From Acidimicrobiia bacterium (lineage in GTDB: Bacteria; Actinomycetota; Acidimicrobiia; Acidimicrobiales; AC-14): 20,212 nt of DNA. The notes under the pieces are model-generated. The model was not told where the DNA came from, did no database searches, and was given only the letters and a program-made list of their open reading frames with translations. Shown piece by piece: positions 18,475 through 20,212 of the stretch. Made by a program: the position numbers and the translations under genes. Location: assembly GCA_019243595.1 (NCBI GenBank), contig JAFAUA010000438.1:1-20212 (forward strand), in the 5' to 3' direction. Within the stretch, counting starts at the first letter, position 1. Each line of letters begins with the position of its first letter.

Positions 18475-18942
18475 ATGGCAAACGGCAACAACGTCACCGT
18501 CGTGGGCAACGTCACCCGCGACCCCGAGCTGCGGTTCACCGCCACCGGCCAGGCGAAGGCCAACTTCGGCATCGCCGTCAACCGGCGCTGGCAGAACCGC
18601 CAGACCCAGGAGTGGGAAGAGGCCACGTCGTTCTTCAACGTCGTCGCGTGGGGCGACATGGGCGAGAACATCGGTGAGTCGATCCAGAAGGGCGCCCGCG
18701 TGCTCGTCACCGGCCGCCTCGAGCAGCGCTCGTGGGAGACCGAGCAGGGCGAGAAGCGCTCCATCATCGAGATCGTCGCCGATGAGGTCGGCCCCAGCCT
18801 TCGGTGGGCCACGGCGGAGATCAAGAAGAACGACCGGCGCAGCCCGGGTGACGGTGGAGGGGGCGGCGCCAGCCGCCCCGTCGCCAACGAGCCGTCTGAC
18901 GGCGGCGGCGGCGGTTACGAGTACGGCGAGGAGCCCTTCTAA
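18475..18942 (+). CDS. ssb: Single-stranded DNA-binding protein
   Basis: SSB coats single-stranded DNA during replication and repair. The 155-residue product has a typical OB-fold region (residues 1 to about 112: [55 protein letters not shown]). A glycine-rich linker follows, and the protein ends in the acidic tip YGEEPF, which corresponds to the partner-binding DDDxPF tip. It starts 2 nt after rpsF stops, and its ribosome site GGAG lies in the last rpsF codons. Placement between rpsF and rpsR and before dnaB is the standard actinobacterial order. Confidence 0.97.
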
Positions 18943-19484
18943 TGGCGCGCGGTGGTGGTGGTAATGATCGCGGCGACCGGCGTCGGTCGCCCAAAGACAC
19001 AGGCCGGCGCACGGCCAAGAAGAAGGTCTGCATCTTCTGCAGCGAGCACATCAAGTGGGTCGACTACAAGGACGTGAACGTGCTGCGGCGTTTCATGTCC
19101 GACCGGGGCAAGATCCGGGCCCGCCGGGTGTCGGGCAACTGCGCCCAGCACCAGCGCGACGTCGCCGTCGCCATCAAGACGGCGCGTGAGCTCGCCCTGC
19201 TTCCCTACAGCCAGCGCACCGTCGCTGAGCGGGGTGGCGGGCGGGGCCCGCGGGGCCCGCGCGAGGACCGCGGCGATCGCGACGACCGCGGCGACCGTGA
19301 GGACCGCGGGGGTCGCGACGACCGCGGGGGTCGCGACGATCGGTCCGACCGGTCCGAGGTCCCCGGCGGCGAGCCGGACGAGCTGGTGAGTGAGGGCGAA
19401 GGCCTCGAGGAAGCCGTGCTCGAGGAAGAGGGCGCCGCCGGCGCCGCACCGGCTGACGAGATCGACGAAGTCGAGGCACCGTGA
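18942..19484 (+). CDS. rpsR: 30S ribosomal protein S18 with a long repetitive, acidic C-terminal extension
   Basis: The S18 core is at residues 26-92: [26 protein letters not shown], then [35 protein letters not shown]30, C33, C67 and H70 indicate the zinc-binding form. The total length is 180 residues, about twice the usual 75-90. After residue 92 come [10 protein letters not shown], five units of a six-residue repeat of the type (E/D)DRG(D/G)R from residue 108, and then an acidic tail ([15 protein letters not shown]). The reading frame is continuous, and the rplI start overlaps the stop (GTGA), so the extension is not an obvious assembly artefact. The ATG overlaps the ssb stop by 1 nt. Confidence 0.93.
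19263..19352 (+). repeat. Five 18-bp degenerate tandem repeats inside rpsR
   Basis: Units start at 19263, 19281, 19299, 19317 and 19335. The typical unit is GACGACCGCGGGGGTCGC, coding DDRGGR; variants code [18 protein letters not shown] and DDRSDR. The 18-nt period keeps the frame, so unit gain or loss would only lengthen or shorten the protein. Confidence 0.85.
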
Positions 19485-19927
19485 GGGTCATCTTGCGGGC
19501 CGACGTGCCTGATGTCGGCCACAAGGGCGACGTCCTCGACGTCGCCGATGGCTACGCCCGCAACTTCCTCGTTCCGCGCGGGCTGGCGATGGCCGCGTCA
19601 ACGGGCGCGCTCGCCCAGGCCGAGTCGATGCGCCGGGCCCGCGCCGTGCGCGACGCCCGCGACCGCGAGGCGGCCGAGGAGATCGCCACCAAGCTCACGC
19701 CGCTCACGATCACCATCCCGGCCCGGGCCGGTGCCGAGGGCCGCCTGTTCGGCTCGGTCACGCCCGCCGACGTGGCGTCCGCCATCGAGTCGCAGTCCGG
19801 GGTCGAGGTCGACCGCAAGCGCCTCCATCTGGACGAACCGATCCGCGCCCTGGGCGCCCATGAGGTACCGCTGCGGTTGCATCCGGAGGTCGAGGTCCGG
19901 CTGAACGTCGAGGTTGTCGCCGAGTAG
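19481..19927 (+). CDS. rplI: 50S ribosomal protein L9
   Basis: The 148-residue product has the normal L9 length. The N-terminal rRNA-binding domain reads [37 protein letters not shown] charged connecting helix follows (residues about 45-75), then the C-terminal domain with [16 protein letters not shown] and [22 protein letters not shown]. The GTG start overlaps the rpsR TGA (GTGA), so translation is coupled. It is the last gene of the ribosomal operon; a 121-bp gap with regulatory signals separates it from dnaB. Confidence 0.97.
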
Positions 19928-19942
19928 CTGACGTGCCACAAT
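19914..19942 (+). promoter_or_regulatory. Candidate dnaB promoter
   Basis: TTGTCG (19914-19919) and CACAAT (19937-19942) are 17 nt apart and each match the sigma70 consensus at four of six positions. The -35 box lies in the end of rplI. The predicted start falls inside the adjacent LexA-like palindrome. Confidence 0.45.
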
Positions 19943-19963
19943 CGAACGTGTGTTCGGTTGTGG
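19936..19963. promoter_or_regulatory. SOS (LexA) box within a 28-bp dyad upstream of dnaB
   Basis: The core CGAACGTGTGTTCG (19943-19956) matches the Gram-positive LexA operator CGAAC-N4-GTTCG, and the base before it also fits the mycobacterial TCGAAC form. The dyad extends outward through CCACAA and TTGTGG with a single non-Watson-Crick position, giving 12-bp arms around a GTGT centre. Placed over the -10 and start region of a plausible promoter, it would repress transcription when bound. As RNA it could also form a hairpin after rplI, but no U-run follows. Confidence 0.65.
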
Positions 19964-20048
19964 ACGGCGGTCCCCAGCTCTTCCCCGGAAAAAAGGCACT
20001 GTGTCCCGTCGCCGGTCCACAGCGTGATCCGGCAGGGTGAGCGGACTC

Positions 20049-20212
20049 ATGGTTCAGTCAATCGACGACGCCCGGCGCCGGCAGCAGCGCGTGGGTCGGA
20101 TCCCGCCCCACAACCTGGAGGCCGAGGAGTCCCTGCTCGGCGCCATGCTGCTGTCCGGCGACGCCATCGCAGCCGCGGTCAACATCCACCTGAGCGCCGA
20201 GGACTTCTACAA
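20049..20212 (+). CDS. dnaB: Replicative DNA helicase DnaB, N-terminal fragment (runs off the right edge)
   Basis: The 54 visible codons read MVQSIDDARRRQQRVGRIPP, then HNLEAEESLLGAMLLSGDAI and HLSAEDFY. This is the start of the DnaB N-terminal domain (usually xPPxNxEAExSxLGxxL). DnaB is the ring helicase of the replication fork. The ATG at 20049 is preceded by AGGGTGAGCGG, a weak ribosome site. The gene lies 121 bp after rplI and has its own candidate promoter and LexA box. The helicase domain, and any intein common in actinobacterial DnaB, would be outside the window. Confidence 0.95.
   Translation, partial: MVQSIDDARRRQQRVGRIPPHNLEAEESLLGAMLLSGDAIAAAVNIHLSAEDFY

Follow-up and report, generated by a model that had tools for sequence, protein, structure and literature searches.

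A predicted LexA operator between rplI and the replicative helicase gene dnaB in an Acidimicrobiia bacterium

Genes and elements around the rplI–dnaB gap

The window, by which we mean the whole 20,212-nucleotide stretch analysed here, ends inside dnaB. Upstream of dnaB lie ssb, rpsR and rplI in the same orientation, with the ends of rpsR overlapping both ssb and rplI, and a gap of 121 bases separates rplI from dnaB. The 54 available residues of the dnaB product match the DnaB N-terminal domain (PF00772, 4.9e-7), and at the corresponding place of two other loci (L279 and L281) both the N- and C-terminal domains of DnaB were found. The S18 protein of the window has a long C-terminal tail with Asp/Arg/Gly repeats and an acidic end. 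The genes and elements are as follows.

18475..18942, + strand: ssb, open frame, PF00436; the first of the co-oriented genes upstream of dnaB
18942..19484, + strand: rpsR (ribosomal protein S18), open frame; PF01084 at residues 37-87 of 180
19481..19927, + strand: rplI (ribosomal protein L9), open frame, PF01281 and PF03948
19914-19919, + strand: -35-like TTGTCG, within the last codons of rplI; 4/6 to TTGACA
19936-19963: extended dyad CCACAATCGAAC-GTGT-GTTCGGTTGTGG, read from the sequence; 12-base arms, 11/12 Watson-Crick pairs
19937-19942, + strand: -10-like CACAAT, immediately abutting the predicted operator
19943-19956, found on the + strand: predicted LexA operator (SOS box) CGAAC-GTGT-GTTCG, CGAACGTGTGTTCG; exact match, 0 mismatches
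19959..19967, - strand: DnaA-box-like CCGTCCACA, 7/9 to TTGTCCACA
19970..19977, + strand: GTCCCCAG, one base off ATCCCCAG, an element enriched in the rplI–dnaB gaps of the order
20013..20021, + strand: DnaA-box-like CGGTCCACA, 7/9
20049..20212, + strand: dnaB (replicative DNA helicase), from its ATG; first 54 codons, running off the window end

A sequence-only reading of this DNA had described a LexA box between rplI and dnaB, embedded in a dyad with 12-bp arms and overlapping a TTGTCG-N17-CACAAT promoter. The box is present exactly, and the dyad is found where it had been placed, with one of its 12 pairs unformed. For the promoter the letters, positions and 17-base spacer are right; the hexamers themselves are weak, each agreeing with the sigma-70 consensus at 4/6 positions, which is below the scan threshold, and the scan returned no promoter-like sites. 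The TTGTCG-N17 arrangement recurs in the genus, followed by CACAAT in genome G388 and by CATAAT in G346. Within the whole window CGAACN4GTTCG has a single exact match. When up to two mismatches are allowed, the matches are no more numerous than chance predicts (16 seen, 17.7 expected), so that only the exact match counts.

LexA and its candidate boxes across the genome

The genome to which the window belongs (G000; 3.70 Mb in 597 contigs, 81.5% complete) contains one LexA gene, recognized by PF01726 (6.8e-26) and TIGR00498 (222.7 bits). Its product carries the S24 peptidase domain (PF00717), and the presumed Ala-Gly, Ser and Lys of self-cleavage were picked out by eye in its sequence. The exact motif occurs at 15 sites in G000, compared with 3 for a reversed-pattern control. 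The surroundings of the 14 sites other than that at dnaB were taken as 13 stretches in which flanking frames were sought. NCBIfam was used to scan ten of the products near the sites, and Pfam to scan six more that came from G000 contigs or the window; several of the box-adjacent products are clipped by contig or stretch ends.

Twelve of the 15 sites adjoin lexA (two sites), recA, ruvC, dnaE2, imuA', dinB, dnaB and genes for a PcrA/UvrD-like helicase, an Rv2578c-type radical SAM protein, a DEDD exonuclease with a UvrC-like part and a PDDEXK_5 endonuclease, the dnaE2, radical SAM and PcrA-like matches being below curated cut-offs. The frame following imuA' encodes an IMS-domain, ImuB-like protein. 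The two lexA boxes lie 126 and 102 bases before the lexA start and the recA box 47 bases before the recA frame; the boxes of ruvC, dinB and the PcrA-like gene overlap the probable start codons. The sequence-only reading had pointed to recA, lexA and dnaE2 as the genes at which to look for the motif, and all three carry it. Of the other three sites, one lies 82 bases upstream of clpP, one (L014) separates two frames that lack Pfam matches and one (L015) is within a short frame that has none either. The excess over the control, together with the concentration of the sites at repair-type genes and dnaB, indicates that the LexA of G000 most likely reads this motif, which would make CGAACN4GTTCG the organism's SOS box.

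Several of these loci have features of their own. The clpP box CGAACATATGTTCG (L008:2078; G000:C170:4077) is exact and fully palindromic. ClpP clears LexA fragments in other bacteria, and clpP may belong to the SOS regulon of G000, or the box may serve the opposite side. The small PDDEXK_5 endonuclease gene (L012:1998-2321; G000:C305) begins 23 bases after the start of its exact box. Both boxes of the lexA pair (L010:1995 and 2019, C216) are exact and they lie 24 bases apart; pairs 27-28 bases apart are also present in G025 (C192, the same two sequences) and G079 (C4). The RecA of G000 (L017:3-1028, C367) appears to bear an intein, as judged by an N-terminal splicing region (TIGR01445) at residues 223-305.

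Conservation of the dnaB box and alternative explanations

RplI was found in 114 of 118 Acidimicrobiales genomes. With the 25 lowest-scoring genomes left out, we examined 90 rplI loci, among them that of the window, in 89 genomes and kept 84 gaps after removal of five loci without dnaB downstream and one with dnaB more than 600 bases away. Scored by their best match, 10 of these gaps had an exact box, 17 a box with one mismatch and 7 a match with two, against dinucleotide-shuffle expectations of 0.01, 0.69 and 8.2. A box with at most one mismatch therefore precedes dnaB in 27/84 gaps (0.70 expected). In the family of the window such a box was present in all ten genomes, being exact in eight (G000, G388, G346, G079, G322, G368, G115 and G297) and having one mismatch in two (G029 and G407).

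Outside the order, 82 genomes were taken from the 144 with RplI in a phylum sample, from which 11 of the order had been removed. dnaB was obtained in 71 of them, eight of which have no gap after rplI. Within 500 bases before dnaB the box was exact in 12 genomes and had one mismatch in 6 (mononucleotide-shuffle expectations 0.02 and 0.34), a total of 18/71 against 0.36 expected that includes four doubtful matches, three at 242-412 bases before dnaB (G198, G233 and G257) and one that may be coding (G262). Exact LexA boxes are plentiful in several genomes that have none at dnaB, with 57 in G034, 35 in G027 and 32 in G107 compared with 5, 2 and 1 for the control. A further set of 80 named loci, drawn from Acidimicrobiales and Acidimicrobiia first and then from other actinobacteria and other phyla, contained five boxes with at most one mismatch before dnaB (L120, exact; L110, L118, L153 and L165); it was kept out of the counts, and L110, L120 and L165 repeat G021, G336 and G001 by sequence. 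Conservation in relatives, on which the sequence-only reading had made its proposal depend, is thus complete in the family, and in the order and the phylum the box is much commoner than chance predicts. The box is conserved in the family and patchy beyond it.

Two loci stand apart from this survey. L153 (JAJPJL010000052.1), from a Bacillota metagenome-assembled genome and thus outside the actinobacteria, has the one-mismatch box CGAACATATGTTCT 28 bases before dnaB. G080 possesses two rplI–dnaB loci (L028 and L049), of which only one has a box, with one mismatch, and this duplication is possibly due to contamination (5% listed).

For the analysis of pairing and flanks we used 24 boxed gaps of the order. 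G061, G101 and G002, in which the box comes 17-32 bases ahead of the aligned start of dnaB, were set aside here and are retained in the count of 27/84. In 17 of the 24 gaps the box follows a TANNNT hexamer by 0-3 bases. The window is among the seven without this hexamer, and its box abuts the weak CACAAT match instead.

The same gaps bear on whether the dyad acts as RNA. The sequence-only reading had named, as its alternative, an RNA hairpin at the end of rplI; such a hairpin could be a terminator or stabilizer and not a protein site. A 61-nucleotide RNA does fold well, its energy of -26.2 kcal/mol (z -3.34) making it more stable than 199 of its 200 shuffles. However, there is neither a T run nor a terminator-like site in the scanned interval 19800-20212, as would be expected of an intrinsic terminator with its G+C-rich stem and T run. 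Each outer pair of the stem is formed in 4-11 of the 24 boxed gaps, compared with 16-24 for the pairs of the CGAAC/GTTCG core, and in G346, of the same genus, the core is kept and the outer arms are not. The core letters are kept rather than covarying, as is the case for a protein site, and the same core is found at recA, lexA and other genes of G000. We consider a hairpin function very improbable.

It is also unlikely, to a lesser degree, that the palindrome arose by chance or is a LexA site that is bound without regulating dnaB. The control pattern does reach its three occurrences in G000, and at least one of the 15 G000 sites (C358:247, L015) lacks a plausible target and could itself be a product of chance. 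Against this, the composition of the 121-base gap predicts 0.00012 exact matches, and the box is found throughout the family and beside a -10 element in many other genomes.

We favour, with a probability of roughly 0.83, a LexA operator that covers the -10/+1 of a dnaB promoter located in the gap after rplI. The helicase would then be SOS-inducible in addition to its supply by read-through from ssb-rpsR-rplI. In an undamaged cell a LexA dimer at 19943-19956 would bar RNA polymerase from the dnaB promoter. Since dnaB is essential, its basal supply would probably come from read-through, in keeping with upstream genes that overlap or adjoin in one direction and with the lack of a terminator-like site after them in the scanned interval. 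Upon damage, RecA filaments would trigger LexA self-cleavage and the dnaB promoter would open. More replicative helicase would then be made, which could serve to restart broken forks. Counting against an SOS operator are the 57/84 gaps of the order and the 53/71 genomes outside it in which the box is absent, and the weak hexamers of the window. The absence of dnaB from the main text of a Streptomyces venezuelae LexA study and the lack of UV induction in Leptospira, both described below, also count against it.

The gaps of the order contain further recurrent words. The DnaA box TTGTCCACA is present as 18 exact sites in 14 of the 84 gaps, where 0.3 would be expected, and TTRTCCACA with at most one mismatch occurs in 57/84 gaps against 5.9 expected. 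In three whole genomes DnaA boxes are rare, with 3-5 in each. As judged by these sites, dnaB may also answer to DnaA. The idea that the DnaA boxes mark the gap as oriC was not supported in G002 and G089, where exact TTGTCCACA sites are found at the record start and elsewhere, outside the gap. Two words are unexplained: ATCCCCAG, present on either strand in 33/84 gaps (0.8 expected), and CTAGCGA, likewise on either strand in 15/84 (0.7 expected), which appears as TTCCCCTAGCGA in G029, G368 and G115.

A PafBC-type element in relatives and the meaning of the predicted dnaB operator

The promoter motif of the activator PafBC has been given as tTGTCRgtg-8 nt-TannnT (PMC5656591) and as TGTCAC-10N-TA-3N-T (PMC8151990). 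PafBC is activated by single-stranded DNA, and sigma-A polymerase then uses PafBC promoters (PMC11804915). Upstream of dnaB, TGTC-N12-TANNNT is present in 10/84 gaps of the order, with 0.4 expected, and in 11/71 genomes outside it; any other spacing from 6 to 20 yields 0-2 in the order, and other spacings likewise yield 0-2 in the outgroup. This spacing before dnaB in relatives is that of the published PafBC (P1-type) promoters (PMC5656591, PMC11804915). The exact element occurs in 8/24 boxed gaps compared with 2/60 others, as raw counts in which kinship is ignored.

The element also forms a composite with the LexA box elsewhere in these genomes. TGTC-N12-TANNNT-N0..2-CGAACN4GTTCG has 90 exact matches in 62/397 genomes of the order, and its reversed control has none. 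In the set of 118 genomes we counted 29 composites at N12 and 10 at spacings 13-20 together, two of the ten using a LexA box that also belongs to an N12 site. At 30 composite loci (L277-L306) the best downstream frame most often encodes a DUF222 protein (13 loci, one below cut-off). Gyrase/topoisomerase IV subunit A was found at 5 loci, DnaB at 4, a DNA methylase at 2 and RuvC at 1, and the frames of the other 5 have no Pfam match. All five gyrase/topoisomerase IV loci belong to one family (f34), and G297 alone holds seven composite copies. An intein-like stretch, whose LAGLIDADG match is barely above cut-off, seems to interrupt the DnaB of G336 (L300); in the DnaB of G115 (L278) the DnaB_C match ends after 33/255 positions, perhaps also because of an intein.

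A PafBC element was sought in the window as well, and the required spacing was absent. The window has TTGTCG-N17-CACAAT and its promoter is thus not of the PafBC (P1) type. Exact composites number zero in G000 and in the two other genomes of the genus, G346 and G388. No WYL genes were found in G000, whose assembly is 81.5% complete; G388 and G346 have three each, and a gene with a PafC-type HTH (PF19187) is present in G346. Loss of PafBC from the whole genus was rejected because of these genes.

The promoter of the window could be viewed as a variant of composite control, in which the dnaB of the lineage stands on a PafBC-type promoter (TGTCR-N11-TANNNT) with LexA at +1 and the window has had the PafBC element swapped for an ordinary TTGTCG-N17-CACAAT. 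The spacing-specific enrichment before dnaB inside and outside the order, the agreement with the published motif (PMC5656591), the preference of the element for boxed gaps, the abundance of the composite against its empty control and the PafC-type gene within the genus all argue for such an origin. The window and both other genomes of its genus nevertheless lack the PafBC spacing, G000 yielded no WYL gene, and the exact element is missing from 16 of the 24 boxed gaps. We give this origin a little less than an even chance. In the window itself, the arrangement looks like LexA control kept on an ordinary, weak promoter. Extended to much of the phylum, dnaB would be a damage-response gene whose gate needs both PafBC, activated by single-stranded DNA at TGTC-N12-TANNNT, and RecA-driven cleavage of LexA at +1, with the DnaA boxes linking the promoter to replication initiation; the window would have lost the PafBC half and kept the LexA half. 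This wider picture is possible and decidedly tentative.

The box resembles the SOS boxes of Gram-positive bacteria and actinobacteria in its sequence, in its single cognate LexA and in its use at lexA, recA, dnaE2, ruvC, imuA' and dinB, and differs in its target, a replicative helicase. The LexA consensus of Streptomyces venezuelae is tCGAAC-N4-GNNCGa, and the word dnaB is absent from the main text of the ChIP-seq paper that reports it (PMC9380542). Searches of the literature on a LexA box at dnaB in Actinobacteria and on LexA in Acidimicrobiia returned nothing relevant. The mycobacterial LexA regulon includes dnaE2, imuA'-imuB and Rv2578c, and G000 is likewise boxed at dnaE2, imuA' and an Rv2578c-type gene. 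In contrast to these, dnaB is an essential replication gene and not a mutagenesis gene.

The closest precedent is Mycobacterium tuberculosis, in which mitomycin C raised the dnaB transcript in a recA-deleted, pafBC-silenced strain; the gene is described there as partially dependent on PafBC with a putative SOS box upstream (PMC8151990). Given this report, the idea of an SOS-controlled dnaB is not wholly new. That box is putative and from one species, whereas the box described here is exact or nearly so across a family, recurs in the phylum and often abuts a PafBC-type -10. In mycobacteria recA is served by separate promoters, P1 and the LexA-regulated P2 (PMC8151990, PMC5656591), whereas before the dnaB of relatives of the window the operator adjoins the PafBC-type promoter itself. 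In Leptospira, which belongs to another phylum, UV did not raise dnaB (0.61-fold; PMC3789691). What is new here is the conservation of the box and the composite PafBC-LexA architecture, of which we found no description in the literature examined.

These results point to a recurrent composite PafBC-LexA class of promoters, and the conservation of the box over many families backs the thin observation made in M. tuberculosis. In E. coli, whose SOS response is the textbook case, the helicase of the fork is not known to be an SOS gene. With a conserved LexA operator at dnaB, the bacteria considered here would resupply the fork motor when they respond to damage, and fork restart through helicase supply would become testable.
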